Shown in pieces: positions 1,307 to 17,997 of a stretch of 63,659 bases of DNA. Where the stretch lies: the NCBI GenBank assembly GCA_022451065.1, contig JAKUOU010000001.1:1-63659 (forward strand). Reading direction: 5' to 3'. Numbering within the stretch: position 1 is the stretch's first letter; each line of letters starts with the position of its first letter. The translations under genes and the position numbers were made by a program. This stretch comes from Pedosphaera sp. GTDB lineage: Bacteria > Verrucomicrobiota > Verrucomicrobiia > Limisphaerales > UBA1096. The notes beneath the pieces were generated by a model that was not told the origin of the DNA, made no database searches, and was given only the letters and a program-made list of their open reading frames with translations.

Positions 1307-2623
1307 ATGTCCAAGCAAGTGGCAGCAGGTTGGGTCGGAACCGGCAAGGCGGCTGTAGATCAGCGGATGGAGCCGGCCTATTGGCGCACCCGAGTGTTCC
1401 ATAACAGTTATGTCCGTGCCGGCAAATTGCACCGTGTTCGCGGTTGGTCGGCTAAGATCCAGTATCAAGGGCTGCGCCGGACACTCTCGCTCGGTGCGGT
1501 CGATCAGGATGTTGCGGCAGCGAAGGCGGCAAGCCTGTTTGCGAAAATTAAGCAGCACGGTTGGCTAGCGCTTGGCCAACGGCAGGGAAGTACCCGCCCA
1601 AGTGTAGTCGATTCGCCGGATGAGGCCGATCCGCGCGAGTCGGTCGATTACTGGCGGCTGCGTCTGGTGGAGCGCAAGTATCCAGCGACGCCTGACGCCA
1701 AGCCGGAGTTATCATGCCGCATCGAGCACGACGGCACGGGTTGCTACTTCCCGCTGGGGACCCTTAACGAGGCGCAGGCTGCGGAGCGGGCGTTAAGGAT
1801 CTTTAACTGTGTCATTGGGGAAGGTTGGGAGACTGCGGTTGCGCGGCATCGGTGTGAACTGACGATGGCGCTTTTTTGGTTTGGAAGCCCGTTGTGCTGT
1901 ACTTACACAACGATTCACACCCGCTCTGGTGGGGTCAGGCGCTTGGCGAACTGCGACGCGGCGGTGCCTACTTTAGTGAATGTTTTCGTGGTGGAACCGG
2001 ATGAGACCGTGGCGGCAACTTTGCGCGAGTTGACAAGCCAAACGCCAGGCTTCGATTGTCGTGGCACGTTCGCGGACATTGGTTCACTGCACGAGCTTGG
2101 CCAAGCGGACGAGCCGGGTCTGCTGCTGGTGAATCGTGGGTTGCCGGGGTTTTCCGGCGAGGAGCTTGATGTCTGTTTCAAGCAGCGGTTTCGCGCCTGT
2201 CCGGTGGTGCCGTTTTTGACATTCGAGGACAGTGAACAGTTGTTCAACTCCACCGCCGGCAGCCGTTACGGCTACTACCTGCACCGCACGCCGCCGGGTC
2301 ATGTGCTGCATTTGCTGGAGGATAAATCCGCAGCCAAGCGCAAACTGCGGCTGGACACTGCAACGATTTCGCGCCGTGTGCGGCAATATTTCAAAAAGCA
2401 GGTCGATTATTTGGTAGGTGAACCGGGTGCGGACACGCTGCCGCACCTCACCCCCCGTGAGCATCAGGTGATGACTCACCTTTGCCGGGGCGCACTGGAT
2501 AAGGAAATCGCTGAGTGGCTCAGCATAAGCTCGTGGACGGTGCACAACCATCTCAAGAACATTTACGAAAAATTGGGCGTCCAAAATCGCACTGAGGCCG
2601 TCATGGAGTATCTGCAAAAGTAA
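1307..2623 (+). CDS. LuxR-family regulator with degenerate receiver and AP2-like N-terminal repeats
   Basis: A 438-residue protein. Residues 25-90 and about 115-180 are two related segments (YWR-R...SAKIQYQG-RRTLSLG...; YWRLRL...LSCRIEHDGTGCYFPLG) resembling the AP2-like arm DNA-binding fold of integrases. Residues 225-335 resemble a response-regulator receiver, but the phosphoacceptor position before GLPGFSG is Asn276 instead of Asp. The acidic pair E230/D232 is present. Residues 380-438 are a clear LuxR/GerE helix-turn-helix (LTPREHQVM, then KEIAEWLSISSWTVHNHLKN). It is probably a DNA-binding regulator not controlled by phosphorylation. It lies 87 bp upstream of the methyltransferase cluster on the same strand, so regulation of that cluster is a reasonable guess. 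ATG 1367 is an alternative start. Confidence 0.75.
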   Translation: MSKQVAAGWVGTGKAAVDQRMEPAYWRTRVFHNSYVRAGKLHRVRGWSAKIQYQGLRRTLSLGAVDQDVAAAKAASLFAKIKQHGWLALGQRQGSTRPSVVDSPDEADPRESVDYWRLRLVERKYPATPDAKPELSCRIEHDGTGCYFPLGTLNEAQAAERALRIFNCVIGEGWETAVARHRCELTMALFWFGSPLCCTYTTIHTRSGGVRRLANCDAAVPTLVNVFVVEPDETVAATLRELTSQTPGFDCRGTFADIGSLHELGQADEPGLLLVNRGLPGFSGEELDVCFKQRFRACPVVPFLTFEDSEQLFNSTAGSRYGYYLHRTPPGHVLHLLEDKSAAKRKLRLDTATISRRVRQYFKKQVDYLVGEPGADTLPHLTPREHQVMTHLCRGALDKEIAEWLSISSWTVHNHLKNIYEKLGVQNRTEAVMEYLQK

Positions 2624-2710: not shown

Positions 2711-4165
2711 ATGATTCCCCAACTGGCCCAATTGCTCTCCCCGGAGGAGGTGCAGCGCATTCACGAGGCGTCGCTTGAGATTCTCGATCAGGTCGGCCTT
2801 GAGGTGAACAATCCCAGGGCTCGGGAGCGGTTCCGCGAGCATGGCTGCCGGGTCGATGATGCGACCGAGCGAGTGACGTTTCCGCCCGCGGTGATTGAGG
2901 AATGCCTAAAGTCGATCCCGCCCAAGTTCACGTTTTACGCGCAGGATCCCGAGTTCGACCGGGTGGTACCCGACCAGGCGCCGCTGGTGATCACTGCCAG
3001 TTCGGCCCCGAACATCATTGATCCTGTTAGTGGTAAAGAGCGCTTTTCTACTTCGGAGGACATCGCCCGCGTCGCCCGGTTGATTGACAGTCTGCCGGAC
3101 ATCGACCTGTTTTCGGTCTCGGTGCTGGCCTCTGATGCGCCGGCCGGCCAATACAGCTTGTCACGGTTTTACACCGCGCTGAAGCATTGCCGGAAGCCGA
3201 TTCGAGGTAGCGGCGATCCGGGAATCGACTGCGAATCGATCCTGCAGTTGGCCTACGCGATCGCCGGCAGCGAGGCGGCCTATAAGGAGCGGCCGTTCAT
3301 CACCCACCATTATTGCCCGGTCATCTCGCCGCTGAAGATGGACGAGAACTCGACCGAGCTGCTAATGTTTTACACCGAGCAGGGACTGCCCAGCCACTCG
3401 ACGGTGGTGCCTAACGCCGGCCTGACATCGCCCATGACGCTGGTCTCGACACTGGCCCAGGGCAACGCGGAGTTTCTATCGATGGCTGCACTGATGCAAA
3501 TGACCCGGCCCGGTACGCCGCTGCTTTACAGTTCGCTCTCGACGGTGGGCGACATGCGCTCCGGCGCCTACGCGCCGGGTGGAGTGGAGTGTGGCATGCT
3601 CAACATGGCCCACGCGCAGATGGCCAAGTTTTACAATGTCCCGTGCAGCGGATACATCGGCCTGACCAACTCGAAGCTCAACGACGCCCAGGCTGGTTAT
3701 GAAAAGGCGCTCTCCTGCATGGGCGGGTTGCTCGGTGGGATGCATGTGCTCCAGTTCGCCGGGTTGATCGACGCGCTGATGGCGTTCGACTACGGCATGG
3801 CGGTGGTGGACAATGAGATCGCGCAGATGCTCAAGCGCGTGGCCCGTGGCATGGAGTTTTCAGAGGACAATCTGGCTCTTGGCGAGATCGGCGAAGAGGG
3901 GCCAGGCGGCATGTTCGTGGCCACCGATCGCACGTTGGAACTGATGACCTCCACCGCGTTGATGCCGGATGTCGCCGACCGTGACACACGACAAATCTGG
4001 ACCGAGAACGGTGCGCTTGATGCATCGAGTCGCGCCCTCCAAAAAGCCCGTGAAATTCTGGCTGAGGATCGCAAGACCCTTTTCTCGCCGGAAGTTGAGG
4101 AGCGAATTCGGGCGAAATTCGAGGGCATGGTTGCCGGCGATTTCACCATGCCCGATGGGTGGTAA
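2711..4165 (+). CDS. MttB-family (non-pyrrolysine) methylamine:corrinoid methyltransferase
   Basis: A 484-residue soluble protein starting MIPQLAQLLSPEEVQRIHEA, the typical N-terminus of the trimethylamine methyltransferase (MttB/MtgB) superfamily. Family features include 'ILDQVGLEV', 'ITASSAPNIIDPVSGKERFS' and the Gly-rich barrel strands 'GYIGLTNSKLNDAQ' and 'GGLLGGMHVLQFAG'. The frame has no internal TAG, so this is a pyrrolysine-free member. Characterised non-Pyl members demethylate glycine betaine (MtgB), proline betaine, carnitine or related quaternary amines and pass the methyl group to a corrinoid protein. The corrinoid protein gene starts 12 bp downstream. Dimethylglycine/sarcosine-type dehydrogenases later in the cluster point to glycine betaine as the simplest substrate; that is inference. 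Longer starts exist upstream, but 2711 gives the canonical N-terminus. Confidence 0.88.
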   Translation: MIPQLAQLLSPEEVQRIHEASLEILDQVGLEVNNPRARERFREHGCRVDDATERVTFPPAVIEECLKSIPPKFTFYAQDPEFDRVVPDQAPLVITASSAPNIIDPVSGKERFSTSEDIARVARLIDSLPDIDLFSVSVLASDAPAGQYSLSRFYTALKHCRKPIRGSGDPGIDCESILQLAYAIAGSEAAYKERPFITHHYCPVISPLKMDENSTELLMFYTEQGLPSHSTVVPNAGLTSPMTLVSTLAQGNAEFLSMAALMQMTRPGTPLLYSSLSTVGDMRSGAYAPGGVECGMLNMAHAQMAKFYNVPCSGYIGLTNSKLNDAQAGYEKALSCMGGLLGGMHVLQFAGLIDALMAFDYGMAVVDNEIAQMLKRVARGMEFSEDNLALGEIGEEGPGGMFVATDRTLELMTSTALMPDVADRDTRQIWTENGALDASSRALQKAREILAEDRKTLFSPEVEERIRAKFEGMVAGDFTMPDGW

Positions 4166-4176
4166 TTTTTTGCACG

Positions 4177-4860
4177 ATGCCTGACATTGATTCCAACATG
4201 CCTGACTATGCCTCGATGAACCAACTGCTCTTTGAGGGCAAGGCGCCCGAGGTGCAGCGGTTGACGGAGGAGGCCATCGACAACGGGCGCGACGTGCACG
4301 AGGTGCTTAACGACGGCCTGATCGCAGGCATGAACGTGGTAGGCGAGGACTTCAAGCGCAACCGGGTTTATTTACCGGAAGTGGTCCTGGCTGCACGCGC
4401 AATGAAGGCCGGCATGACGGTGCTCAACCCGCTGCTTACCGCCCAGCAGGGCGAGGGCGACTCAATGGGCACGCTGGTCATGGGCACGGTCAAGGGCGAC
4501 CTGCATGACATCGGCAAAAACCTCGTGCTGATGATGGCCGAGGGCGCCGGCTTCAAGTGCGTCAACCTTGGTACCAATACCTCCGCACCGGAATTCATCG
4601 CCGCCGTCAGGGAACACAATGCCACCATCCTCGGGATGAGCGCCCTGCTCACCACCACGATGATATACATGAAAACCGTCATCACCGAGATGGAGGCTGC
4701 AGGGCTCGGTCATGTGAAAATCTGCGTCGGCGGCGCGCCAGTGACCCAGTTGTTCGCCGACGAGATCGGCGCCGACGGCTACGCCCCAGACGCCGCGACT
4801 GCCGTCGATTTATTCAAGAATATCTCCTCGGAAACCAAGGCCGCCGCGACTGCCGGTTGA
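4177..4860 (+). CDS. Cobalamin (corrinoid)-binding methyl carrier protein
   Basis: A 227-residue protein of the MtaC/MtbC/MetH-B12 type. Residues 10-95 form the helical cap ('VLNDGLIAGMNVVGEDFKRN', 'YLPEVVLAARAMKAGM'). Residues 98-220 are the Rossmann-like B12 domain with the ligand motif D108-L-H110-D-I-G113 in 'GTVKGDLHDIGKNLV', followed by 'GMSALLTTTM' and 'VGGAPVT'. His110 is the expected lower axial cobalt ligand. It should accept a methyl group from the MttB-type enzyme and deliver it to the homocysteine methyltransferase encoded at 7750. The start at 4177 (MPDIDSNMPD) is preferred, but 4198 is also possible; neither has a strong ribosome binding site. Confidence 0.92.
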   Translation: MPDIDSNMPDYASMNQLLFEGKAPEVQRLTEEAIDNGRDVHEVLNDGLIAGMNVVGEDFKRNRVYLPEVVLAARAMKAGMTVLNPLLTAQQGEGDSMGTLVMGTVKGDLHDIGKNLVLMMAEGAGFKCVNLGTNTSAPEFIAAVREHNATILGMSALLTTTMIYMKTVITEMEAAGLGHVKICVGGAPVTQLFADEIGADGYAPDAATAVDLFKNISSETKAAATAG

Positions 4861-4887
4861 CGGAGCCGGCCCGGGAAAACAGGAAAC

Positions 4888-6528
4888 TTGAGCGTTACCG
4901 TCCAGATTGATTCGCACCGGATTGAATCCGCAGCCGGTGCCACGTTGTTCGACTTGGCCAAGCAGATGGACGTGCGGATTCCCACCTCGTGTTCCGGGAA
5001 AGGCAACTGCCGCGAATGTCTCGTCGAGATCGCCCAGGGCGGTGAATTACTCAGTGATCGGACGCCGGAGGAGGCCCATCTGCAGGGCGACTTTCGGCTT
5101 TCCTGCCGCGCAACCATCGAGGTCGGCTCAGGGGCAATCCGCTGCCAAACGCTGCAGCGCGGCGCGATTCAAATCGAGGAGCACGGCGTTAGTCTGCCGT
5201 GCCTCGACGAGGCGCCGCAGCTTGGCCCGGCAGTGACACGCGATGGCGACCAGGTGCTGCTCGACGGCGAGGAAATCGATCGGTCTACCGGCCCGATTCA
5301 TGGCTTAGCCGTGGATCTGGGCACCACCACCGTTGCGATGCGCTTGGTCGATCTCGAGTCCGGCCGCGTTATGGCAAGCCAGTCGTTCGAGAATCCCCAG
5401 CGCTTCGGCGGCAGCGACGTGCTGGCGCGGGTGAAGTTTGACACCGACCACAAGGGCCGGCTTCTGCGCCGTACGCTCGCCGGTTACATGAGCCGGGCCA
5501 TCGAGTCGTTCGAGGTGTCGCCCGGGAGCATTTACGAGGTGGTGCTGGTTGGTAACCCGGTCATGCGCGATCTGTTCTTCGGGCTGGACGTGTATCCGCT
5601 TGGCCAGATGCCGTATCGTTCTGTCACCGAGCACGAGTTTCACGAGGGCCAACGCGCTGGCACTCACTTGGCCAAGCGCGGCAAACAATCGCTGCTGCCG
5701 ATCCATCCCGATGGCAGGGTTTACGCCCTGCCGCTGGTCGGTTCCCACGTCGGGTCTGACACAGCCGCCTGCCTACTGGCGACTGGCCTGGCGCGTGAGG
5801 AGCGCATGGTTGCGATGATGGATATCGGTACCAACACCGAGCTGGTCATCGGCAACCGTCACAAGCTCCAGGCTGCGTCCTGTCCCGCTGGCCCGGCGTT
5901 CGAGGGGGGGCAAATTCAATGTGGGATGCCCGCGCTGGAGGGCGCGATCGAGCGGGTGCTGCTTGAGCCGGAGCAGCGCTTAGGCGTGATCGGTGGCGGG
6001 CCACCTTCCGGCCTCTGCGGCTCCGGCCTGATCGACCTGCTGGGCGAACTGCTTCGCACCAAGCGGATCAATAGTTGCGGCCGGTTGACCGACGACTCCG
6101 ACCGGTTTTGGCTCGACGCCGAAAACGATGTTTACCTGACTGAGGAGGACATCAGCCAACTGGCCCAGGCCAAGGCCGCCAACGTCGCCGGGCTGCATCT
6201 GCTCCATCAAAACTACGAGATTGATTTTTCAGATCTGGATGTTTTTTACCTCGCGGGCGGATTCGCCCGGCACATAGATCTCGATCATGCACGCCGGATC
6301 GGCCTGATTCCCGATCTGCCGGACGAGCGGATCGTGCAGGTCGGCAACGCCGCGCTGGAGGGCGCCACGCTGGCGCTGCTCTCGGTGTCGGCCCGGGAGG
6401 AGATTGACCAACTCGTCCGTCGGATCGAGCATGTCGAACTAGAAACTTTTCCCGAATTCTTCCATTGCTTCACCGAGGGCGCGCAGTTTGTGCCGTTTCA
6501 AAACCGAATCACGGAGGCCATTATATGA
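4888..6528 (+). CDS. Corrinoid protein reductive activator (RamA/RACo-like; 2Fe-2S plus ASKHA domain)
   Basis: A 546-residue protein, probably starting at TTG 4888, behind AGGAA. Residues 1-80 form a plant-type [2Fe-2S] ferredoxin domain with ligands C35, C41, C44 and C73 ('CSGKGNCREC', 'RLSC'). A linker leads into a DUF4445/ASKHA ATPase core with phosphate-binding motifs 'AVDLGTTTVAMRLVDL' near residue 140, 'MMDIGTNTELVIG' near 310 and 'VFYLAGGFARHID' near 455. Members reduce inactive cob(II)alamin on a corrinoid protein back to cob(I)alamin using ATP. Its position directly after the corrinoid protein supports this role. The stop overlaps the next start (ATGA), suggesting translational coupling. 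Confidence 0.9.
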   Translation: MSVTVQIDSHRIESAAGATLFDLAKQMDVRIPTSCSGKGNCRECLVEIAQGGELLSDRTPEEAHLQGDFRLSCRATIEVGSGAIRCQTLQRGAIQIEEHGVSLPCLDEAPQLGPAVTRDGDQVLLDGEEIDRSTGPIHGLAVDLGTTTVAMRLVDLESGRVMASQSFENPQRFGGSDVLARVKFDTDHKGRLLRRTLAGYMSRAIESFEVSPGSIYEVVLVGNPVMRDLFFGLDVYPLGQMPYRSVTEHEFHEGQRAGTHLAKRGKQSLLPIHPDGRVYALPLVGSHVGSDTAACLLATGLAREERMVAMMDIGTNTELVIGNRHKLQAASCPAGPAFEGGQIQCGMPALEGAIERVLLEPEQRLGVIGGGPPSGLCGSGLIDLLGELLRTKRINSCGRLTDDSDRFWLDAENDVYLTEEDISQLAQAKAANVAGLHLLHQNYEIDFSDLDVFYLAGGFARHIDLDHARRIGLIPDLPDERIVQVGNAALEGATLALLSVSAREEIDQLVRRIEHVELETFPEFFHCFTEGAQFVPFQNRITEAII

Positions 6529-7760
6529 CCGGTGCGCCAATTGCATCTCAACCTTTTGAGCCGGTGAGCATTCCGGAGGCCGAGTGGAAACGTCACCTCT
6601 GCACTCCTGCTGGAGAGCCACTCAGCGAGGATGCCCAGATGGGTGTCGAGCGGGCGCTGAACTGGGTGAACGAACATGGTTGTCCGTGGAGTTTTGTGTC
6701 CGAACCAATCGACCTTGAGACGGAGAACGACCGCATCCGCTTGACCAACTGTACTGAGTTCACCAGCCGGGCCTTGGCCGAGAAACTGAGGCTTGGCCAA
6801 GCGCACTGCGCAGTAGCGGTGGCCGTTGGTGCCGGGCCAAGCGTGTCGGCGGAGATTCAGCGTTTGTGGAACGCCGAACGCCCCGACGAGGCGTTTTTCC
6901 TGAATGCCGCCGCCGCCGCCACCGCCGAGCAGTTGTTACTCCGGGCTCGCAAGTCAATTTGCGATTGGGCCGAGCCAACCGGCTTGGCTGCATTGTCGCA
7001 AGAAAGCCCTGGTTATGATGGCTGGGATCTGGGCGACCAATGTGCGCTGTTGGACTTGCTGGCCGCGCAGCCCGCTTGGCCAAGCGCGGCCAAGTTGGAC
7101 ATCCTTCACAGCGGCATGTTGTCGCCGGAACACTCGCAGCTTGCACTCTTCGGGCTGGGGCCAAGTGCGGTGGTTCAGGCACTCGAGCCCAGCGCAATCC
7201 CCTGCGTCCGCTGCAGCATGGATCCCTGTTCGCACCGACGAATGCGATTCGCCGGCGATATGCCAGCGCTAGTCGATACGGCATCAAGTGTTGCGGTCGA
7301 AACCAAGGTCGCAGCTGTGATCGAAAACCACTACGATTATCCGGATAAGGCGCTGCGCCGCTGGAGTCGTGAGTTGCTCACGATTGATTTGTGTGGCGAG
7401 TCCGTCGAGGCCACCTTTCGGCCCGATTGCAAGACGTGCAGCAATATGGGTGTGCCGTTTGGATTTGTTTACTCCATTAAACTGGGATTGCGCCGGGACG
7501 GATATCCCATCCGGAAGCTGTCCTGCCGGCCAAGCGACTCGGATTATCAGTGCATGTGTTCCTGTATAGCGGATCCGGATGGATTTCCGCAGGCCATGGT
7601 TAGTGCGCCTGGTTTTACAGGCCAGACCTTGAGTCAAACCTTGGAATGGAATCCAGTGGTAGAACCGGCCGGATGCCTCTGCCGCCAGCCCAGCCGCGAT
7701 CACAAATGGAAAATCGCCCTGCAAACCGTTCACTACAAACTTTATTCAGATGAGCAATAA
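6525..7760 (+). CDS. MetH-activation-domain-like protein with a Cys-rich C-terminal region
   Basis: A 411-residue protein. Residues 20-212 follow the pattern of stand-alone methionine synthase activation domains: 'EWKRHLCTPAG' (cf. EVFRYLGY), 'ALAEKLRLGQAHCAVAVAVG' then 'AEIQRLW', and above all 'SPGYDGWDLGDQ' followed by 'ILHSGMLSPEHSQLALFGLG', matching the SPGYGD...TESxMMxPxKS signature. That fold binds SAM and remethylates cob(II)alamin. The last 190 residues contain 12 cysteines: C227-x2-C230-x4-C235, C290, C302-x2-C305, C334, C343, C345, C347, C384 and C386. These could hold Fe-S clusters or zinc. I infer a second corrinoid-repair factor, perhaps with its own electron carrier. The gene starts inside the stop of the activator gene and overlaps the homocysteine methyltransferase start. 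Confidence 0.7.
   Translation: MTGAPIASQPFEPVSIPEAEWKRHLCTPAGEPLSEDAQMGVERALNWVNEHGCPWSFVSEPIDLETENDRIRLTNCTEFTSRALAEKLRLGQAHCAVAVAVGAGPSVSAEIQRLWNAERPDEAFFLNAAAAATAEQLLLRARKSICDWAEPTGLAALSQESPGYDGWDLGDQCALLDLLAAQPAWPSAAKLDILHSGMLSPEHSQLALFGLGPSAVVQALEPSAIPCVRCSMDPCSHRRMRFAGDMPALVDTASSVAVETKVAAVIENHYDYPDKALRRWSRELLTIDLCGESVEATFRPDCKTCSNMGVPFGFVYSIKLGLRRDGYPIRKLSCRPSDSDYQCMCSCIADPDGFPQAMVSAPGFTGQTLSQTLEWNPVVEPAGCLCRQPSRDHKWKIALQTVHYKLYSDEQ
7073..7086. repeat. CTTGGCCAAG iterated palindrome, extended 14-bp copy
   Basis: CGCTTGGCCAAGCG is a perfect 14-bp palindrome. Its 10-bp core CTTGGCCAAG occurs 15 times in the window, starting at 2096, 4953, 5667, 6792, 7075, 13240, 14174, 16438, 30225, 36133, 44096, 58208, 60783, 61708 and 63203. 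The copies fall in different codon phases, so they are not a by-product of one peptide motif. Confidence 0.75.
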
Positions 7761-8667
7761 CCTGCTGGAAACCATCAAGGAGCGTCCGCTGTTGGGTGAT
7801 GGCGCCATGGGTACTCAGCTTCAGGAAGCCGGGCTTGAGAGCGGCGGCTGCGGTGAGGCATGGAACTTGAATGAACCGGAGCGGGTCGTGGCCATCCAGC
7901 GTCGCTATGTCGAGTCCGGGTCCGACTGCCTGATTACCAACACGTTCGGCGGTAGTCGCATCATGCTCAAGCGTCATATGGACAACCCGGACGTTGTTGG
8001 TATCAACAAGGCCGCGGTCGAAGTTGCCCGTCGTGCGTTCGGTGACCGGGAAGGGTTCGTGCTCGGAGACATCGGGCCGTTCGGCGGGTTAATGGAGCCG
8101 TATGGAGAGATCACGCGCGCGGAGGTTGACTGCGCCTTTGTCGAGCAGGCTAGGGCGCTCGTCGAGGCCGGTGCTGACGCGATCATCGTCGAGACGCAGA
8201 CAGTGTTGGATGAGGCTGGCGCGGCCATCGCAGCCGCCAAGGCTGCCGGCGCCCCGTGCGTCATTGCCTCCATGGCATTTGACCTCACTCATGAAACCCG
8301 GGAGCTTCGTACCATGATGGGGACCGACCCGGATGAGGCTGCCGCATTTTTGGAAGAGGCCGGGGCGGATGTGCTTGGGCTGAACTGTGGCACCAACATC
8401 GACATGGCCAGCGCTAAGGCCGCAGTGAAGCGTTACCGGGATTGCTCCGGCTTGCCGATCATGGCTCAACCCAATGCCGGGCAACCCGTCCTGCAGAATC
8501 TAAAGGTGATTTACAATCAAACTCCCGACGAGATGGCTTCCCAAGCTGCCGACATGTTTTTGACTGGTGTAGATATCCTCGGCGCGTGCTGCGGCAGCAC
8601 CCCGCAACACATCGCCGGCTTGCGTGATCGGCTAAACCACTTTATTGAGACAAAAAACAAAGGCTGA
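7750..8667 (+). CDS. Homocysteine S-methyltransferase (MetH module-1 type)
   Basis: A 305-residue TIM-barrel protein of the homocysteine S-methyltransferase family. It opens with 'PLLGDGAMGTQLQEAG' and carries 'LITNTFGGSR', 'GDIGPFGGLMEPYG' and the zinc-binding cysteines C213 ('LGLNCGTN') and C280-C281 ('GACCGSTPQHI'), which activate homocysteine thiolate. Full MetH has this module fused to folate, B12 and activation modules. Here it is alone, but a B12 protein and an activation-like protein are encoded just upstream, so it probably methylates homocysteine from the corrinoid protein. Direct use of a betaine, as in BHMT, is an alternative. It overlaps the preceding gene by 11 bp, and the next gene starts 3 bp after it. 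Confidence 0.88.
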   Translation: MSNNLLETIKERPLLGDGAMGTQLQEAGLESGGCGEAWNLNEPERVVAIQRRYVESGSDCLITNTFGGSRIMLKRHMDNPDVVGINKAAVEVARRAFGDREGFVLGDIGPFGGLMEPYGEITRAEVDCAFVEQARALVEAGADAIIVETQTVLDEAGAAIAAAKAAGAPCVIASMAFDLTHETRELRTMMGTDPDEAAAFLEEAGADVLGLNCGTNIDMASAKAAVKRYRDCSGLPIMAQPNAGQPVLQNLKVIYNQTPDEMASQAADMFLTGVDILGACCGSTPQHIAGLRDRLNHFIETKNKG

Positions 8668-8670
8668 AAA

Positions 8671-8997
8671 ATGGAAAAAGTTATTGAGGAAAACCCGGCC
8701 GCTGCCGAGTGGCTGCCTGAGAACAAACCGGACGGCTCCGGCATCGGCGTCAATTATGTCGATGCGTTTCTGAAGCCGCTCAACTGTGAACTGGAGGATG
8801 AAGTGCGCCTTGCCTGCAAACGACGGGGTCTCAAGATTACTGTTAGCGTGGGCGACCGAAAAGGCGAGGCCATCCTGCGCCGCATCGAGAACGGCCCCGA
8901 CGTGCGTGCCATCCTCCACGCCGCGCTGACCGAGGCATTCGCCCAGGCCGGCGCCAAGTGCGAGCACGGCGACGGCAACATTCGAGTGGAGTATTGA
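8671..8997 (+). CDS. Hypothetical 108-aa protein in the methyl-transfer operon
   Basis: I do not recognise this family. The protein is small, soluble and acidic at the N-terminus ('MEKVIEENPAAAEWLPENKP'), with no signal peptide or membrane segment. The C-terminal half, 'LEDEVRLACKRRGLKITVSV' through 'RAILHAALTEAFAQAGAKCE', looks like a compact alpha/beta domain. Only three cysteines are present and they are dispersed, so a metal site is not obvious. It lies 3 bp after the homocysteine methyltransferase and 13 bp before etfB, which makes co-transcription very likely. It could be an accessory factor joining the methyl-transfer and ETF halves, but nothing in the sequence proves that. Confidence 0.75.
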   Translation: MEKVIEENPAAAEWLPENKPDGSGIGVNYVDAFLKPLNCELEDEVRLACKRRGLKITVSVGDRKGEAILRRIENGPDVRAILHAALTEAFAQAGAKCEHGDGNIRVEY

Positions 8998-9010
8998 GCA
9001 GATTTTTTTG

Positions 9011-9784
9011 ATGAATATCTTTGTTTGTATCAAGCAGGTGCCGGACACCACGACGCGGATCAAGTTGCGCGAGGACAGGAATGGAATCGATGAATCAGAC
9101 ATTCAGTGGATCATCTCCCCACACGACGAACTGGCCATCGAGGAAGCGTTGCGGCTGCGCGAGCAACAGCCGGACTCGACCGTCACCGTGCTCTCGGCCG
9201 GCCCCGAGCGAGTGACCGACTCGCTGCGGATGGCTCTGGCCATGGGCGCTGACAAGGCAGTGCGACTCAATCTGCCGGGCGACGCCGACTCGTCGATGAA
9301 CGCCCGATCGCTTGCCGCCGCCATCGGCAAACTTGGCCAGGCGGACATCGTGTTCACCGGTAAGGAGGCGATCGATGATGGTGCGGCGGCGGTTGGTCAG
9401 TCGCTCGCTGTGTTCCTCGACATGCCGTGCGTCACGGTTGTCAACAGCATCAACTACGGCGACGGCGCGATCACCTGCCGCCGAGATGTCGGCGGCGGCA
9501 GCATAGAGGTCATCGAGGCGCCGCTCCCTGCGGTTGTCGCCGCACAGGTCGGCCTCAACGAGCCGCGTTACGCCACCGCACTCAACATCATCAAGGCCAA
9601 GAAAAAACCGATCGACATATTAACCGCGGAAGAGTTGGGCGTCACCGAGGCCAACCGAAAAACACGGCTGAAAAACTTCGAGCTGCCACCGCCCAAGAAG
9701 CCGTGCCGAATCATTGAGGGCGCTCCCGCCGATCAAGCGAAGGAATTGGTTCGCGTACTTGCCGAGGAAATTCAGGCCATTTGA
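9011..9784 (+). CDS. etfB: Electron transfer flavoprotein subunit beta
   Basis: A 257-residue EtfB. Hallmarks are 'IFVCIKQVPDTTTRIKL' at the start, 'SPHDELAIEEALRLRE', 'VTVLSAGPER', 'GADKAVRL', 'IVFTGKEAIDDGAAAVGQSL' and the C-terminal 'KKPIDILTAEELGV'. It binds AMP and pairs with EtfA, whose gene begins 14 bp downstream, to carry electrons from flavin dehydrogenases to a membrane quinone reductase. The two dehydrogenases at 10766 and 11979 are the obvious donors and the membrane Fe-S protein at 14462 the acceptor. The ATG at 9011 is preferred over the TTG just before it. Confidence 0.95.
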   Translation: MNIFVCIKQVPDTTTRIKLREDRNGIDESDIQWIISPHDELAIEEALRLREQQPDSTVTVLSAGPERVTDSLRMALAMGADKAVRLNLPGDADSSMNARSLAAAIGKLGQADIVFTGKEAIDDGAAAVGQSLAVFLDMPCVTVVNSINYGDGAITCRRDVGGGSIEVIEAPLPAVVAAQVGLNEPRYATALNIIKAKKKPIDILTAEELGVTEANRKTRLKNFELPPPKKPCRIIEGAPADQAKELVRVLAEEIQAI

Positions 9785-9798
9785 CCCGAGAAAACGAC

Positions 9799-10761
9799 AT
9801 GAAAATTTTAATCATTGCCGAGCACAAGAACGGTGCCCTCAGCGAAGCCGCTATGGAATTGTTTGGGCTGCCGTTTGGGCAGGCGGAAGTCCATGCCGTC
9901 GCTGCTGGGGAGGGCGTCGAGCCGCTCGCTGGGCCGCTTGGACAACTGGGCGTGGCCAAGTTGCATCTCATCAACTCGCCGGCTTTGGCCAGCTACACGG
10001 GTGAGTCATTTGGACAGGCGCTTGGCCAATTCATCCAGCAACTCGCCCCCGACGTGGTGCTTGCTGCGCACACGCCGCAGGGCAGGGATCTTGCACCGCG
10101 CCTGGCCGCCGTGCTCGATGCCGCCCTGGCTACCGACTGCATCCAAGTGAGTCTCGATGGCGGCCAGGTGACCGCTCGACGCCCGGTTTACGCCGGTAAA
10201 GCCACGGCCGAAGTTGAGTTCAACGGTGACAGCCTGAAGGTGATCACCGTCCGGCCGCGCACGGTCAAGGCACCGGAGCCGGATGCCTCTCGCAGTGTCG
10301 AGGTTACCGAGGTTGCCGTCGAGTTGCCGGGACAAAAAACGGCACTCAAGGAAATCATCGCCAGCGACAACGTGCGTCCGGATGTCACCGAGGCGGCAAT
10401 CATCGTTACCGGCGGCCGCTCATTGGGCAGCGCGGAAAACTTCAGCATCATCGAGAATTTCGCCGATAGCATCGGCGCGGCGGTCGGCTCGTCGCGCGCG
10501 GCGGTCGATGCCGGTTACCGGCCGTATCGCGACCAGGTCGGCCAGACCGGGAAGGTGGTGTCGCCGCAGGTTTACATTGCGTGTGGTGTCAGCGGCGCAA
10601 TCCAGCACTTGGCCGGCATGCGCACTTCGAAGCACATCGTTGCCATCAATACCGACCCGGAAGCGCCGATTTTCCAGTTGGCCGACTACGGCATCGTCGG
10701 TGATCTGTTCGAGGTTGTGCCGCAACTCACCGAGGCGGCAAAAAACCGGAACAGAAGTTGA
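9799..10761 (+). CDS. etfA: Electron transfer flavoprotein subunit alpha
   Basis: A 320-residue EtfA starting [20 protein letters not shown]. The C-terminal FAD domain is intact: '[19 protein letters not shown]', '[14 protein letters not shown]', '[20 protein letters not shown]', 'AIQHLAGM' and '[19 protein letters not shown]'. The protein forms the FAD-carrying half of ETF with EtfB and should shuttle electrons from the dimethylglycine/sarcosine-type dehydrogenases to the DgcB-like membrane protein. The start at 9799 gives the normal N-terminus; the in-frame TTG at 9781 adds only six residues. Confidence 0.95.
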
Positions 10762-10765
10762 TCCG

Positions 10766-11995
10766 ATGGACACGCTTGGCGACGCAGAGATTGTGGTGAT
10801 CGGTGGCGGGGGCGTCGGCTGCGGTGTGGCGCACAGCCTCTGTCAGGCCGGAAAAACCGATGTCCTCTTGCTCGAGAAAAACGACGCGCTCGCCGCAGAA
10901 ACCACCTCGCAGGCGGCCGGCCTGGTCGGTCAGGTTCGCACCAGCATCGAGCGCGTTAAGTTGGCCATGTGGTCGGTCAGGACGTTCTCTGAAATGGAGG
11001 CCGAGCCGGAGGCCAAGCCAGGCTGGCGGCAGGTCGGCTCGCTACGCGTGGCGTTAACCGACGCGCGTGTCGCTGAGTTTGAGCAGATGAAAACCGTTGC
11101 CGAAGAGGCCGGCCTTGAGACATCGTTCATCAGTAATGGCGACGCCAAGGCCAAGTGGCCGATGTTTGATTTTTCCCCGGCCAAATTGGTGCTGTGGTGT
11201 CCGAGCGACGGCTACCTGCAACCCAACGATCTTGCGATGGCCTATGCGCATCGTGCCCGGCAAAAGAACGTTCGAGTGGTCACCGGTGTCACGGTCGAGG
11301 GTATCCGCACCGAGAACGGCCGCGTCATCGGTGTTGACACAAGCCAGGGTGCAATCGCCTGCGACACAGTCATCAACGCCGCCGGCGCGCACGCGTGGCA
11401 CATCGCGAAAATGGTCGGACTCGAATTGCCGATTTTCCCGGTGAGGCACGAATATTTTGTGAGTGTCGATGCTGAAGGCATGAAGCCGGAACTACCGGTG
11501 ATGCGTGTGCCGGATGCCTCGCTTTATCTTCGCGCCGAGATCAACGGCCTGCTGCTTGGGGGCTGGGAACCCGAATCGCTTTCGCTCATGCCGGATGATT
11601 TCGAAAACGGCCAGATGCCGCCGCGCGTTGAGGAGGACTGGGACGTGATGGGCTGGTTTATCGAGCAGATCGCGCCGCTCTACAGCAAGGCGGCCGACCT
11701 TGGCGTGCGCAGCATTTTCAAGGGCTGGCCCACCTTTGTGCCGGACGGAAAATTTATCATCGGCGAGAGCAGGCAACTCAAGGGCTTTGTAATGGCCGGC
11801 GGCTGTAACGCCCACGGTGTCAGCGGCTCGGCCGGCATCGGCCGGCATGTGGTTGAGTCGATGCTCAAGTCGGAACCGTCGCCCTACGTGCGCAGTCTTA
11901 GCCCGGATCGGTTCCTCGATGGCGAGTGGGATGCGGCCGAGGCTCAAACCCTGGCCAGGCGCATTTACGAAACTTATTATGGGCTCGGAAGCTGA
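10766..11995 (+). CDS. FAD-dependent oxidoreductase, sarcosine dehydrogenase/oxidase-like (DAO family)
   Basis: A 409-residue single-domain flavoprotein. The dinucleotide-binding motif is 'EIVVIGGGGVGCGVAHSL' at residues 8-25, followed by 'SQAAGLVGQVR' at 48-58. The C-terminal FAD loop is 'GVRSIFKGWPTFVPDGKFII' to 'GFVMAGGCNAHGVSGSAGIG'. The protein is related to the N-terminal half of its neighbour at 11979 but lacks the folate-binding domain. The position equivalent to the flavin-linking His in dimethylglycine dehydrogenase is Gln49, so FAD is probably bound non-covalently. It is likely to oxidise an N-methyl amino acid such as sarcosine with ETF as acceptor. The end overlaps the next gene by 17 bp. 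Confidence 0.85.
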   Translation: MDTLGDAEIVVIGGGGVGCGVAHSLCQAGKTDVLLLEKNDALAAETTSQAAGLVGQVRTSIERVKLAMWSVRTFSEMEAEPEAKPGWRQVGSLRVALTDARVAEFEQMKTVAEEAGLETSFISNGDAKAKWPMFDFSPAKLVLWCPSDGYLQPNDLAMAYAHRARQKNVRVVTGVTVEGIRTENGRVIGVDTSQGAIACDTVINAAGAHAWHIAKMVGLELPIFPVRHEYFVSVDAEGMKPELPVMRVPDASLYLRAEINGLLLGGWEPESLSLMPDDFENGQMPPRVEEDWDVMGWFIEQIAPLYSKAADLGVRSIFKGWPTFVPDGKFIIGESRQLKGFVMAGGCNAHGVSGSAGIGRHVVESMLKSEPSPYVRSLSPDRFLDGEWDAAEAQTLARRIYETYYGLGS

Positions 11996-14462
11996 CACAC
12001 TGGAATCCACTCAACCGGTCAAGCTTCCGGAGCGCGCGCGGGTGGTTATCATCGGTGGCGGCGTCGTCGGTTGTAGTGTGGCGTATCACCTTACGCGCCT
12101 GGGCTGGAACGATGTCGTCGTGCTTGAGCGCAAGACCTTGACCGGTGGCTCGACGTTTCACGCCGCCGGCCTGGTCGGCCAACTCCGCAGCTCGGCCAGC
12201 ATTACGCAGCTGCTCAAATACAGCGTCGATCTTTACGATAAACTCGAGGAGGAAACCGGCCAGGCAACCGGCTGGAAGGCCAACGGTGGCCTGCGCCTGG
12301 CCTGCAACAACGAGCGCCTTTCCGAGATCAAGCGACAGGCCACCACGGCTCACAGCTTCGGACTAGAGATGCATTTGCTCTCACCAAGTGAAGCAAAGGA
12401 ACTTTGGCCGATGATGGATGTCTCGGACTTGGTTGGCGCAGCGTTCCTGCCGACAGACGGGCAGGCGAGTCCGTCCGATTTGTGTCAGGCCCTTGCCAAG
12501 GGAGCGAAGATGAAGGGCGCGCAAATCATCGAGGGCTGCCGCGTGACCGGTTTCGACATTCGAGACGGGCAAGTTGCCGCCGTGCAAACGGAACAGGGCA
12601 ACATTGAGTGCGAAATCGCGGTCAACTGCTGCGGCATTTGGGCGCGCGAATGCGGCCGCTTGGCTAACGTCTCCGTGCCGGTGCAGCCGATGCAGCACCA
12701 GTATCTCATCACAGAGCCGGTCGAGGGCATCACCTCCGATCTACCGACGCTGCGCGACCCGGATCGGCTCTGCTATTTCAAGGAGGAGGTTGGCGGCTTT
12801 GCGATGGGCGGCTACGAGTTGGATCCGATGCCATGGACGCCGACAAAAGGCATCCCGCGCGAATTCCATTTTCAACTGCTTGAGAGCGACTGGGACCAGT
12901 TCGAGGGGTTATTTCTGCTGGCCGCCGGTCGCGTTCCTGTGCTGGAAAACGCCGGTATTCGGCAGCTCATCAATGGCCCGGAAGCGTTCACGCCGGATGG
13001 CAGTTTTATTCTCGGCGAGGCGCCGGAGGTGCGTGGTTTTTTTGTCGGCGCCGGCTTTAACGCCTACGGTATCGCGGCCAACGGCGGGGCGGGACGGGCG
13101 TTGGCGGAGTGGATTGTTGGTGGCGAGCCGTCGATGGATTTGTGGCCGGTGGACATCCGGCGATTCGGCGAGCATCACCACGACACGAAGTTTCTCATCG
13201 AGCGCACGACCGAGGCCACCGGCAAGCATTACACGATGGCTTGGCCAAGCGAGGAACACGAGTCGGGTCGGCCGCTGAAGACCTCGCCGCTTTACGAACG
13301 ACTCAAGTCGGACGGCGGCTGTTTCGGCAGCAAGTTTGGCTGGGAACGGCCAAACTGGTTTGCGCCGGACGGCGTCGAGCCGAGGGACGAGCCAAGCTAC
13401 AGTCGCGCGAACTGGTTCGAACATGTGGCCCGCGAACACCGACACACGCGCGAAGCGGTGTCGCTCTTCGATGAATCTTCGTTCGCGAAATACCGGCTCG
13501 AGGGACCGGACGCCGAGAAGGCGCTTTCGTGGATCTGCGCTAACGACATCGCTGTCGAGCCGGGTCGGCTGGTTTACACGCAGCTCTGCAACCAGCGCGG
13601 TGGCATCGAGGCCGACCTCACCGTTTGCCGCCTGGCCAAGGACGAATTTTACATTGTCACCGGCACCGGCTCGGCTGCGCGTGACTTCAACTGGATTGAA
13701 CGCAACATCCCCGCCGGGTGCGATGTGCAGTTGACGGATGTCTCGATAGCGAATGCGGTGCTGGGGCTGATGGGGCCGCTTGCGCGAGAGGTGCTCACGC
13801 AGGCCGCCGACGCCGATTTGTCGAATGACGCGTTTCCGTTTGCAACCTCGTGCGACTTGCAGGTCGCCGGGGCGATGGTGCGGGCCATGCGCGTGACATT
13901 CGTTGGCGAATTGGGTTGGGAACTGCACGTGCCGGTCGAGTCGGCGACGGCGGTTTATGATCGGCTGATGGAGCTTGGCCATGCGTATGGCATCGCCAAC
14001 GCCGGTTATCGTGCCATTGATAGTTTGCGCCTGGAAAAGGGCTACCGGATCTGGGGAGCCGACGTGACGCCCGATCACACCCCACTCGAGGCCGGACTCG
14101 GCTGGGCGGCCAAGCTGAAGACCGACACACCGTTTCTCGGCCGCGAGGCGCTCGAGCAGCAAAAGGTTCGTCACTTGGCCAAGCGCCTGGCCTTTTTCAC
14201 GGTGGACGACCCCGAGGTGGTGCTTTTGGGTCGCGAGACGATTTACCGCGACGGAGAGCGCGTGGGCTGGATCACCAGCGGTGGTTTCGGGCACACCGTT
14301 GGCCAAGGGATAGGCATGGGCTACGTGCGAAATAACGACGGGATCGATCGTGACTTTTTGCTCAGCGGCAACTACGAGCTGGAGGTGGCCTGCGAAAGCG
14401 TGCCGGCCAAGCTATCGCTGCAACCGGCCTACGATCCAAAATCCGAACGAGTGAAAATGTGA
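11979..14462 (+). CDS. Dimethylglycine/sarcosine dehydrogenase-type flavoprotein with GcvT folate domain
   Basis: An 827-residue protein with the layout of DMGDH/SARDH. Residues 20-390 are the DAO FAD domain ('ARVVIIGGGVVGCSVAYHLT', 'GGSTFHAAGLVGQLRSS'); His61 in 'TFHAAGL' matches the His that carries covalent FAD in mammalian DMGDH. The FAO_M-type linker runs over about 390-445. The C-terminal aminomethyltransferase (GcvT) part has 'VGELGWELHVPVE', 'GYRAIDSLRLEKGYRIWGAD' and 'GLGWAAKLK'. Family members oxidise dimethylglycine or sarcosine, transfer the carbon to tetrahydrofolate as 5,10-methylene-THF and give electrons to ETF. ETF genes lie just upstream and its quinone reductase just downstream. 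The ATG at 11979 lies inside the end of the preceding gene. Confidence 0.9.
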   Translation: MGSEADTLESTQPVKLPERARVVIIGGGVVGCSVAYHLTRLGWNDVVVLERKTLTGGSTFHAAGLVGQLRSSASITQLLKYSVDLYDKLEEETGQATGWKANGGLRLACNNERLSEIKRQATTAHSFGLEMHLLSPSEAKELWPMMDVSDLVGAAFLPTDGQASPSDLCQALAKGAKMKGAQIIEGCRVTGFDIRDGQVAAVQTEQGNIECEIAVNCCGIWARECGRLANVSVPVQPMQHQYLITEPVEGITSDLPTLRDPDRLCYFKEEVGGFAMGGYELDPMPWTPTKGIPREFHFQLLESDWDQFEGLFLLAAGRVPVLENAGIRQLINGPEAFTPDGSFILGEAPEVRGFFVGAGFNAYGIAANGGAGRALAEWIVGGEPSMDLWPVDIRRFGEHHHDTKFLIERTTEATGKHYTMAWPSEEHESGRPLKTSPLYERLKSDGGCFGSKFGWERPNWFAPDGVEPRDEPSYSRANWFEHVAREHRHTREAVSLFDESSFAKYRLEGPDAEKALSWICANDIAVEPGRLVYTQLCNQRGGIEADLTVCRLAKDEFYIVTGTGSAARDFNWIERNIPAGCDVQLTDVSIANAVLGLMGPLAREVLTQAADADLSNDAFPFATSCDLQVAGAMVRAMRVTFVGELGWELHVPVESATAVYDRLMELGHAYGIANAGYRAIDSLRLEKGYRIWGADVTPDHTPLEAGLGWAAKLKTDTPFLGREALEQQKVRHLAKRLAFFTVDDPEVVLLGRETIYRDGERVGWITSGGFGHTVGQGIGMGYVRNNDGIDRDFLLSGNYELEVACESVPAKLSLQPAYDPKSERVKM

Positions 14463-16462
14463 TGGACGATCCGGCGCAAATCACGCGTGAAACGTTCGGC
14501 AACATTCCGCCGTCGTCGGTCATTGCGTTTTACGTTTTGGCTGTGGCGTCGCTGCTTGTGTTTTGTTGGGGCCTGTGGCGTCGCTGGAAACTGTGGCGGC
14601 AGGGCAGGTCGGTCGCTTTCAGGGAAATCCTGCTCGACAATTATCAGCGCTTGAAGCCGCGTCTTGGCCGGTTGCTGAAGGAGGGCCTCGGACAAAAACG
14701 GGTGCGTGGCCGTGGCCTGGCCAGTTGGGCACACATCATGATGTTCGCCGGGTTCATGATGCTCTTCCTTGGCACGACGCTGCTGGAGATTGATCACCTT
14801 GCGGCCAAGGTTTCAGAGAAGTTTCATTTTCATTACGGATGGTATTACGTGATCTACGAGGGAGCTCTCGATGTGTTCGGCATGCTGTTCATCCTCGGCA
14901 TCACTCTGTTCGCATGGCGTCGGATGCATCGACCGAGCAGCGTCGGGCATCGCGCAAGCGATTGGACAGCACTTGGCTTGTTCCTCGGCATTGGCATCAC
15001 GGGCTACCTCGTCGAGGGGCTGCGTATTGTATGGGATCAGCCGGAAGGATTGGCGCTGTGGTGTTCGCCGGTCGGCGCCGGCGTTGCCAAGTTGTTCGGC
15101 GGGATGAGCGAATCGACCAGCCGCTCGGCGCATCTTGTCGTATGGTGGGTGCATGCCGCGATGGTATTTGGTTTCTTCGCGATGATTCCGTTCACGCGTC
15201 TGCTTCATTTCATTACCGGTCCGGCGAACCTGTTTTTCTCCACGCCTTCGCTTGGCCAACTGAAGCCCATTTCCATCGAGGAGGTCGAGGAAACCGGCGT
15301 GGTCGGCGTCTCGGAGATCGCACACCTCGACCAGCAGCAACTCTTGAGCCTCGACGCCTGCATGGAGTGCGGCCGATGTGACGATGCCTGTCCGGCGTTT
15401 GCCTCCGGCAAGCTGCTCTCGCCCAAGGCTGTCGTGCAGGATTTGAAGGGACTGATGCAGGCCACGGCCAACGGCGGGTCGGTTGCGCTGCACGGCGACA
15501 CGATTCAGGCCGAGACCGTCTGGGCGTGCACCTCGTGTAACGCCTGCGTGACCGCCTGCCCGGTGCGGGTCGATCCGCTTGGCTTGTTGTTTGACCTGCG
15601 CCGAGATCGCGCCGCCGAGGGGGCACTGGCCGGTTCCGCCGCCAACTCGATGCGTCAGATGCAAACCAAGGGCAACCCTTGGGGTTTCCCACAGGCCGAG
15701 CGCCTGGCCTGGGCGGAGGGGCTCGACGTGCCGTTGGCCAGTGAACATCCCGACTTTGAAATCCTGTGGTGGGTCGGCTGCGCCGGGTCGTTCGATCGCC
15801 GCACGCAGAAGGTCACCCGAGCCATCGCTAAGCTGCTGCTCAAGGCCGGCGTGAACTTTGCCGTGCTGGGCCCTAACGAATGTTGCACCGGAGACTCGGC
15901 CCGGCGGCTCGGCGACGAGTTTTTATTTCAGGAATTGGCCGAGAAAAATCATGCGACACTGAAGCAGCATGGCGTGCGGAAAATCCTGACCCAATGTCCG
16001 CACTGCCTGAACTCGCTGACGCACGACTATCCGCAATTCGGCGACCAATTTGAAGTCGTGCACCATAGCGAGTTTTTGCAGCAGTTGATCGATAACGGTA
16101 AACTCACCGCACCCAAACGCAATGGCTCGGTGACTTATCATGATCCGTGTTACCTCGCGCGTGTCAACGGCGTGCACCAGGCGCCGCGCGACCTACTGGG
16201 CGAAGGCGTGAGCGAAATGGAGCAGCGACGCGAAAAGACCTTTTGTTGTGGAGCCGGTGGTGGGAGGATGTGGATGGAGGAGGAGGCCGACCAACGGGTA
16301 TCCGTGCTGCGCGCGCGCGAGGCGGTCGAGACTGGCGCGGAAACCGTAGCCGTCGGCTGCCCGTTCTGCCTGACGATGATGACCGACGGTGTCAAGTCGT
16401 GTGGCTCTGATGCTGTGGTTGAGGACGTCGCCGAAAACTTGGCCAAGCGGCTCGGTCTTTAA
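14462..16462 (+). CDS. Membrane-bound Fe-S oxidoreductase, DgcB/HdrD-like ETF:quinone reductase
   Basis: A 666-residue protein. About five transmembrane helices lie in residues 18-255 (near 18-40, 88-110, 128-152, 168-190 and 224-250). Two 4Fe-4S motifs follow: C300-x2-C303-x2-C306-x3-C310 ('CMECGRCDDACP') and C356-x2-C359-x2-C362-x3-C366 ('CTSCNACVTACP'). The C-terminus has two CCG (heterodisulfide-reductase) domains, with 'GPNECCTGDSARR', 'LTQCPHCLNS', 'TFCCGAGGGRMW' and 'VGCPFCLTMM'. This is the architecture of DgcB and related proteins that pass electrons from ETF to quinone, with a membrane anchor. Its place after etfBA and two dehydrogenases fits. The start overlaps the preceding stop (TGATG). 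Confidence 0.88.
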   Translation: MDDPAQITRETFGNIPPSSVIAFYVLAVASLLVFCWGLWRRWKLWRQGRSVAFREILLDNYQRLKPRLGRLLKEGLGQKRVRGRGLASWAHIMMFAGFMMLFLGTTLLEIDHLAAKVSEKFHFHYGWYYVIYEGALDVFGMLFILGITLFAWRRMHRPSSVGHRASDWTALGLFLGIGITGYLVEGLRIVWDQPEGLALWCSPVGAGVAKLFGGMSESTSRSAHLVVWWVHAAMVFGFFAMIPFTRLLHFITGPANLFFSTPSLGQLKPISIEEVEETGVVGVSEIAHLDQQQLLSLDACMECGRCDDACPAFASGKLLSPKAVVQDLKGLMQATANGGSVALHGDTIQAETVWACTSCNACVTACPVRVDPLGLLFDLRRDRAAEGALAGSAANSMRQMQTKGNPWGFPQAERLAWAEGLDVPLASEHPDFEILWWVGCAGSFDRRTQKVTRAIAKLLLKAGVNFAVLGPNECCTGDSARRLGDEFLFQELAEKNHATLKQHGVRKILTQCPHCLNSLTHDYPQFGDQFEVVHHSEFLQQLIDNGKLTAPKRNGSVTYHDPCYLARVNGVHQAPRDLLGEGVSEMEQRREKTFCCGAGGGRMWMEEEADQRVSVLRAREAVETGAETVAVGCPFCLTMMTDGVKSCGSDAVVEDVAENLAKRLGL

Positions 16463-16474
16463 CTTTTTGAACCA

Positions 16475-17761: not shown

Positions 17762-17852
17762 AACAGAAGATTTTGGATGAGGAAATATTGGTTGAGACCT
17801 GGAAGCCCTCAACCCGTATTCTGCCCGTGCTTGGTCTGGAGGCGCACGAACC

Positions 17853-17996
17853 GATCCCCTTGAGAAGAATGATATCAAGGAGAAACATCCCGAGGCTGTA
17901 AAGGAACTGACAAGAATACTCGAACAATGGCAGACGACTCTGCCGATCAAATCAACGGGCAATGTTTTCTCAAAGCTTCGAAATCCCAAGAAATAA
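17853..17996 (+). pseudogene. Sulfatase C-terminal remnant
   Basis: Between the aminotransferase and the SASA esterase there is no full gene. One frame over 17853-17996 reads DPLEKNDIKEKHPEAVKELT..., then LEQWQ, and ends SKLRNPKK-stop. This is the usual tail of arylsulfatases (D-P-x-E-x-x-D/N, KHPEVVKEL, LxxW). No start, signal peptide or catalytic region precedes it. A different 47-codon frame opens at 17758 and stops at 17899-17901, overlapping the remnant. I read the segment as the leftover 3' end of a deleted sulfatase gene. Confidence 0.6.
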
Positions 17997-17997
17997 T

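Follow-up and report, generated by a model that had tools for sequence, protein, structure and literature searches.

Where does the methyl group go when a demethylase operon carries a corrinoid protein and no folate module? The question is raised by a 63,659-nucleotide stretch of Pedosphaera sp. DNA (contig JAKUOU010000001.1, positions 1 to 63,659; the window), in which a forward-strand operon combines an MttB-family methyltransferase with a homocysteine S-methyltransferase (HMT). We predict that the operon passes a methyl group from a quaternary amine (or another N-methyl donor) to a corrinoid protein and from there to homocysteine, without folate, and we consider this likely. It is the best reading because of the modules present, their conserved order, the MetH-type HMT and the lack of an MtgA/MtgD-type gene. 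The original prediction had named a corrinoid betaine:homocysteine methyltransferase system; the route through the corrinoid to homocysteine holds as the best reading, whereas glycine betaine as the donor is plausible from downstream genes and cannot be read from the MttB pocket. We observed the genes, their folds and active-site motifs, the operon structure and its conservation, the swapping of donor enzymes among relatives, and no folate module in the operon-bearing congeners searched.

Core genes of the operon

Five open reading frames (ORFs), all intact at these coordinates, form the core of the operon:

2711 to 4165, forward strand: putative donor module, a non-pyrrolysine MttB-family methyltransferase of 484 amino acids (PF06253, 310 bits)
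4177 to 4860, forward strand: MtgC-like corrinoid (B12) protein with a DxHxxG motif (PF02310 and PF02607)
4888 to 6528, forward strand: RACo-type ATP-dependent corrinoid activase with an N-terminal 2Fe-2S domain (PF14574, 236 bits; PF17651, 116 bits; Fer2)
6525 to 7760, forward strand: predicted stand-alone MetH-type activation domain (about residues 15 to 220), then a Cys-rich C-terminal region (profile link to PF02965 proteins; AlphaFold2 and Foldseek)
7750 to 8667, forward strand: putative acceptor module, HMT with zinc ligands Cys213, Cys280 and Cys281 (PF02574, 201 bits)

Domain and motif searches agree with the earlier assignment of separate, adjacent genes for the HMT (Cys213/280/281), the B12 carrier (DxHxxG), RACo and a non-pyrrolysine MttB. 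From MttB to position 17761 no junction exceeds 27 bp, and most of the genes overlap or lie only a few bases apart; 2711 to 17761, from MttB through an aminotransferase, is predicted to be one transcription unit. Seven of 21 congeneric genomes have both the operon-type HMT and the operon-type MttB, and the remaining 14 have neither. These seven are incomplete metagenome-assembled genomes (MAGs; 73-93% complete, with the window genome at 86% and 3.48 Mb), and named congener records are marine-type Verrucomicrobia MAGs. Conservation of gene order in relatives, proposed earlier as a check, was found: the order is identical in the six other operon-bearing congeners, as far as their contigs extend. 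Given the tight junctions, the shared order and the co-occurrence of HMT and MttB, the association of these genes is not due to chance.

The MttB has no in-frame stop, and Leu318 is aligned with the pyrrolysine position of MttB. A pyrrolysine-type MttB is ruled out on both counts. The best PDB match is MtgB (9yce/2qne, 246 bits, against 193 bits for the trimethylamine-specific pyrrolysine MttB), and the nearest solved relative is thus a glycine betaine methyltransferase, with 33% identity to MtgB of Desulfitobacterium hafniense. Among the operon-bearing congeners MttB identity is 94-96%. No close MttB was found outside the genus among 388 genomes of the phylum. A scan of genome contigs with MttB peptide patterns, which were too specific, matched only the genus and one planctomycete. 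That planctomycete (L085:10001-11434) carries a solitary MttB with 71% identity to the window MttB and no operon or cassette around it; the B12, activation-domain and HMT genes of that genome are on a separate contig (L103).

The DLHDIG motif of the B12 protein (D107/H109/G112) is invariant in the seven congeners. Its top NCBIfam family is MtgC_2 at 190 bits (model cut-off 370) versus 143 bits for MetH, and by these scores it appears more MtgC-like than MetH-like. In the HMT, Cys213, Cys280 and Cys281 are invariant in 7/7 congeners and also in Gemmatirosa (see below). PDB matches of the HMT are led by Thermotoga maritima MetH (180 bits) versus 64 bits for BHMT, so a BHMT-type enzyme is ruled out, and we predict the corrinoid-accepting MetH type. 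The HMT reaches 200 bits against PRK07534 (bmt), under the model cut-off of 338, and has about 37% identity to alphaproteobacterial bmt/MtgE-type proteins.

The protein at 6525 to 7760 had been called MetH-activation-like, which fold matches and a profile link to PF02965 both bear out. Alone it has no Pfam match, PF02965 included. Its profile links it to a protein annotated as B12-dependent methionine synthase activation protein (E 5e-11) and to a homologue from a planctomycete (E 7e-17), two relatives (L103 and L097) that pass the PF02965 cut-off. No match came from a PDB sequence search with the profile or when the shallow profile was compared by hhalign with one MetH sequence. AlphaFold2 modelling gave a predicted local distance difference test (pLDDT) value of 33 with a congener-only alignment and 74 with a 16-sequence cross-phylum alignment. 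In a Foldseek search the model matched 19 PDB chains at E<1e-3; every one is MetH or a MetH activation domain, with 1j6r (TM0269) at the top (E 7.8e-9, target TM 0.82). The model thus points to a MetH-type activation-domain fold.

The window protein has Q-E-S-P-G-Y where the genome's own MetH has RPxxGY, the S-adenosylmethionine (SAM) motif, and so is without the Arg. We take the role of this Arg to be that in E. coli MetH. As it is not conserved, SAM-driven reactivation is uncertain, and RACo may perform the corrinoid reduction instead. Residues 221-411 are Cys-rich, with the motifs CxxC...C, TCSN, GCLC and RDHKW, and are possibly a metal or Fe-S site; this region is present in part of the related cassettes and missing from L134, L136 and L103.

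A related cassette in three phyla

The acceptor half of the operon also occurs with other donors. A plasmid of Gemmatirosa kalamazoonensis encodes, in order, a URO-D enzyme (MtaA/CmuA-like), a B12 protein (62% identity to the window protein), RACo (58%), an activation protein (36%), an HMT (62%) and a 108-aa protein; its B12 protein also carries a fused PF13769 "Virulence factor" domain, a weak match. Four planctomycetes have the cassette, two as MttB-B12-RACo-activation-HMT and two with URO-D enzymes, and two more (L145 and L147) have MttB-activation-B12-HMT without RACo. In other Verrucomicrobiota the cassette URO-D enzymes are 65-70% identical to that of Gemmatirosa, and in one (L193) URO-D is fused to the B12 protein. 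Homologues of the 108-aa protein adjoin the cassette in Gemmatirosa, planctomycetes and other Verrucomicrobiota, and stand beside the HMT in most close cassettes.

The planctomycete cassette MttBs have only 24-28% identity to the window MttB and belong to a different subfamily; MttB donors were therefore probably recruited on more than one occasion. In the HMT tree the window protein and close cassette members (19 sequences) form one clade with support 100/99, MetH stands apart, and members with MttB and with URO-D donors are interleaved within the clade. The constant part of the cassette is thus the corrinoid protein, the reactivation proteins and the HMT, and the variable part is the donor enzyme, as expected if homocysteine is the acceptor. 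Some URO-D-type cassettes adjoin a UxuA-like mannonate dehydratase (L195) or an arabinofuranosidase (L194), hinting that O-methylated sugar acids, 4-O-methylglucuronate for example, may be what the URO-D donors demethylate.

The HMT and the MttB module could instead be independent and merely share a promoter, with the HMT using S-methylmethionine or betaine directly. Many lower-scoring stand-alone HMTs in the phylum have no cassette, as such independence would allow. Corrinoid activation genes nevertheless flank the HMT in three phyla, the cassette HMTs form a single clade and the window HMT resembles MetH much more than BHMT, and we consider this explanation very unlikely.

We propose that a folate-free cassette of B12 protein, RACo, activation protein, HMT and 108-aa protein is general in Verrucomicrobiota, Planctomycetota and Gemmatimonadota. 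Plug-in donors, drawn from two or more MttB subfamilies and from MtaA/CmuA-like URO-D enzymes, some with sugar-acid genes as neighbours, would send the methyl groups of osmolytes, and possibly of methylated sugars, directly into methionine in aerobic bacteria. We put the chance that this generalization holds at about even.

MetH, folate modules and downstream genes

On another contig the window genome encodes an intact, canonical MetH of 1233 aa, which scores 2073 bits with the methionine synthase model, and long MetH frames occur in most congeners, with or without the operon. The operon had been described as a methionine synthase split into single proteins. It does contain every non-folate MetH module as a separate gene, and its activation protein is truly of the MetH type. 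With an intact MetH in the genome, an MtgC-like B12 protein (190 versus 143 bits) and an HMT outside the MetH clade, it is an added methylotrophy-type system and not a dissected MetH. Replacement of methionine synthase by the operon in this lineage is contradicted by the intact MetH and is extremely improbable.

The original prediction saw no MtgA/MetH-type methyltetrahydrofolate methyltransferase gene. We likewise found no folate:corrinoid methyltransferase in the window and no stand-alone MtgA/MtgD-type gene in the seven operon-bearing, incomplete MAGs. A PF00809 search of the window genome gave FolP, a dihydropteroate synthase (DHPS)-like protein and MetH only, with no MtgD. Every congener has at most three PF00809 matches, and these fall in the three score classes of the window genome. 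The PF00809 protein on contig C7 was considered as a hidden MtgD and rejected; its match is to DHPS (116 bits), and the MeTr model, which detects a MeTr-like protein of the Verrucomicrobiota locus L194, does not match it. This extra, DHPS-like protein also occurs in congeners without the operon. If every operon genome had a folate module, the chance of missing it in all seven through incompleteness would be about 2e-6 (the product of 1 - completeness, with independence assumed). Seven planctomycetes with the cassette or its relatives gave no stand-alone folate methyltransferase, only FolP, MetH and weak matches.

The operon is preceded by a regulator and continues into genes of oxidative metabolism:

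1307 to 2623, forward strand: LuxR-family (GerE) regulator (PF00196, 60 bits), 87 bp upstream of the operon
8671 to 8997, forward strand: small 108-aa protein with no Pfam or NCBIfam match
9008 to 9784, forward strand: electron-transfer flavoprotein (ETF) beta subunit (NCBIfam EtfB, 165 bits)
9781 to 10761, forward strand: ETF alpha subunit (NCBIfam ETF-alpha-type matches)
10766 to 11995, forward strand: FAD-dependent amine dehydrogenase with a DAO domain only, a candidate sarcosine dehydrogenase (PF01266)
11979 to 14462, forward strand: dimethylglycine dehydrogenase (DMGDH)-like protein of 881 aa with DAO, FAO_M and GCV_T folate domains (PDB matches)
14459 to 16462, forward strand: membrane Fe-S oxidoreductase with 4Fe-4S and two CCG domains (PF02754, PF13183; nitrate-reductase-gamma-like N-terminus)
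16475 to 17761, forward strand: class-III (HemL/GSA-like) aminotransferase, the final gene of the unit (PF00202, 213 bits)

The best PDB match of the 881-aa ORF is mammalian DMGDH (545 bits), followed by dimethylglycine oxidase (456 bits). The DAO protein resembles the FAD half of this DMGDH-like protein and matches DMGDH (170 bits) and sarcosine oxidase in the PDB. The membrane Fe-S oxidoreductase is the likely electron outlet from ETF to quinone. Together with ETF and the two flavoproteins it may serve to oxidise a dimethylamine, for instance dimethylglycine. The aminotransferase starts 12 bp past the Fe-S gene, is separated by 200 bp from the next gene and is kept in three congeners, all of those whose contigs extend that far.

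The LuxR-family regulator holds the same position in six congeners (70-80% identity) and always adjoins the operon. On contig C219 of genome G000 (L072, 3046-4719) a second LuxR regulator, 76% identical, is followed by the start of an MttB (95.6% over 91 aa) at the contig end, which suggests a second operon copy in the same genome or a strain variant. Congener G004 has the operon-type HMT on two contigs. Elsewhere in the window, predicted sulfatases and secreted proteins of DUF1501 and PQQ-like type, assigned from the ORF sequence only, make up a long run from 22920 to 61104; such runs are common in polysaccharide-degrading marine Verrucomicrobia.

Proposed methyl route and its alternatives

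We infer the direction of methyl flow, homocysteine as the acceptor and the substrate. In the first step the non-pyrrolysine MttB would take a single methyl group off a quaternary ammonium osmolyte, with glycine betaine the likeliest candidate, and load it onto cob(I)alamin bound to the MtgC-like protein. The MetH-type HMT would then move it from methylcob(III)alamin to zinc-bound homocysteine, so that methionine forms with no need of tetrahydrofolate. Corrinoid that has been oxidised to Co(II) would be reduced again by RACo and the MetH-type activation protein. In the third step the DMGDH-like and DAO flavoproteins would oxidatively demethylate the dimethylglycine-type product, with electrons passing from ETF through the membrane Fe-S protein to the quinone pool and the methyl groups entering folate as methylene-tetrahydrofolate. 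The operon would thus serve both catabolic and anabolic methyl transfer, and its acceptor half (B12 protein, RACo, activation protein and HMT) would be a module to which relatives join different donors.

Several observations weigh against this route. With an intact MetH, methionine synthesis is independent of the operon, and a catabolic flux would yield one methionine per substrate and need an outlet, and none was identified. Two members of the HMT clade (L196 and L197) have no recognisable cassette around them. The cassette cluster of L194 (genome G119) includes a MeTr-like folate methyltransferase and MetF, and folate coupling therefore exists in the wider family. In D. hafniense MtgB, docking predicts that Tyr, Asn, Arg, His and Phe hold betaine (PMC6855144); by alignment this pocket is not kept in the window MttB, which has Ser97, about Pro203, Ser313, Gln348 and Leu356 (MtgB residue numbering is shifted by one in the aligned chain relative to PMC6855144). 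BCCT betaine transporters do not track the operon: they are found in 1/7 operon genomes versus 6/14 others, and there are 0 in the window genome. The L194 cluster (9093-18937) holds both acceptor options, an HMT as well as a MeTr-like PF00809 protein and a methylenetetrahydrofolate reductase with DUF5981, near a URO-D/B12 pair.

A route to folate is described for MtgBCDE of Ruegeria pomeroyi and Phaeobacter inhibens. In Ruegeria, MtgC and MtgD serve betaine demethylation and methionine synthesis alike, and MtgE is the homocysteine module, which in the 2025 model is dispensable for the use of betaine (Mausz et al. 2025, PMC12478193). An R. pomeroyi mtgD mutant does not use betaine even with methionine, so MtgD is essential for growth on betaine (PMC12478193). 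The window operon could likewise deliver its methyl groups mainly to tetrahydrofolate. A folate module encoded elsewhere or missing from the assembly, or else the pterin domain of MetH, would then carry out this transfer, and the HMT would make methionine for anabolism only. The essential MtgD of R. pomeroyi, the MeTr and MetF genes of L194 and the incompleteness of the MAGs speak for such a path. A stand-alone MeTr or MtgD was not found in the seven congeners or the seven planctomycetes, the extra PF00809 protein is DHPS-like and also present in operon-less congeners, and we consider the path unlikely.

The substrate is a closer matter. Glycine betaine is our first candidate for the donor in the proposed route to homocysteine, with about equal chances for and against it. 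As the pocket residues of MtgB are not conserved, the substrate cannot be read from the MttB, and MttB homologues vary widely in substrate (PMC12478193). The enzyme might act on beta-alanine betaine, gamma-butyrobetaine, carnitine, proline betaine, taurobetaine or the like, and the demethylated omega-amine might go to the class-III aminotransferase. In every congener with a contig long enough, that gene ends the operon; it is superfluous for glycine betaine, so the donor may be an omega-amino-acid betaine. The downstream flavoprotein is closest to DMGDH and the nearest solved MttB relative is a glycine betaine methyltransferase, and we rate such a donor somewhat below even, as a serious contender that alters the substrate and leaves the rest of the route as it is.

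No described system with homocysteine as acceptor in this layout had been known to the original prediction; MtgBCDE, which joins an MttB-type enzyme, MtgC and MtgE, is a precedent (PMC12478193). It shares with the window operon an MttB-family MtgB, the MtgC corrinoid protein and a separate homocysteine module, as well as RamA-type reactivation and genes for dimethylglycine and sarcosine demethylation. In Sinorhizobium meliloti mtgBCDE are co-located, and about 70% of genomes with MtgBCD are without MetH (PMC12478193). The systems differ in the MtgD pterin module, essential there for both functions and not found in the window genome, and in the MetH that the window genome keeps and the HMT and MetH-type activation protein inside its operon. 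On a Terrarubrum plasmid bmt is paired with an MttB gene, next to sarcosine and dimethylglycine oxidation genes. Relative to MtgBCDE the new features are the lack of MtgD as a folate module, the retained MetH, a dedicated activation protein in the operon and donor modules swapped across phyla.

Other known systems share parts of the scheme. MtgABC of D. hafniense and MtpB and MtcB of Eubacterium limosum also pair a non-pyrrolysine MttB enzyme with an MtgC-like corrinoid protein, but their known acceptor is tetrahydrofolate (coenzyme M in methanogens) and not homocysteine, and the pocket of D. hafniense MtgB differs from that of the window MttB. The folate-independent core methionine synthases MesA-MesC (Price et al. 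2021, PMC7857596) make methionine without folate, with the methyl group proposed to come from corrinoid proteins. They are of the MetE type, occur in anaerobes and are predicted to be fed by MtrA or CoFeSP, whereas the window enzyme is of the MetH type (PF02574) and is predicted to be fed by an osmolyte demethylase. BHMT, as in SAR11, has the same predicted net reaction (betaine and homocysteine to dimethylglycine and methionine) in a single cobalamin-free enzyme, in contrast to three proteins and a corrinoid here. MetH has homologous zinc-homocysteine, corrinoid and activation modules; in the operon the genes are separate, the corrinoid protein is of the MtgC type and a folate module is lacking, and the genome has a true MetH besides. 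A literature search, with most subscription papers outside its scope, found no description of a betaine/cobalamin system in Verrucomicrobia or of corrinoid O-demethylation to homocysteine.

The sequenced strain G. kalamazoonensis KBS708 and finished Verrucomicrobiota genomes hold the cassette or parts of it, and laboratory tests look feasible. If the proposed route is true, one acceptor cassette serves different donor enzymes, a natural case of modular B12-enzyme evolution, and an HMT beside a stand-alone MetH-type activation protein would be a marker for finding new demethylases. For PVC bacteria it would also offer a route, open to testing, by which to explain the fate of methyl groups and the demand for B12. 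In marine Verrucomicrobia an osmolyte abundant in the sea would be demethylated straight into the methionine/SAM cycle, bypassing the folate branch on which roseobacters depend.

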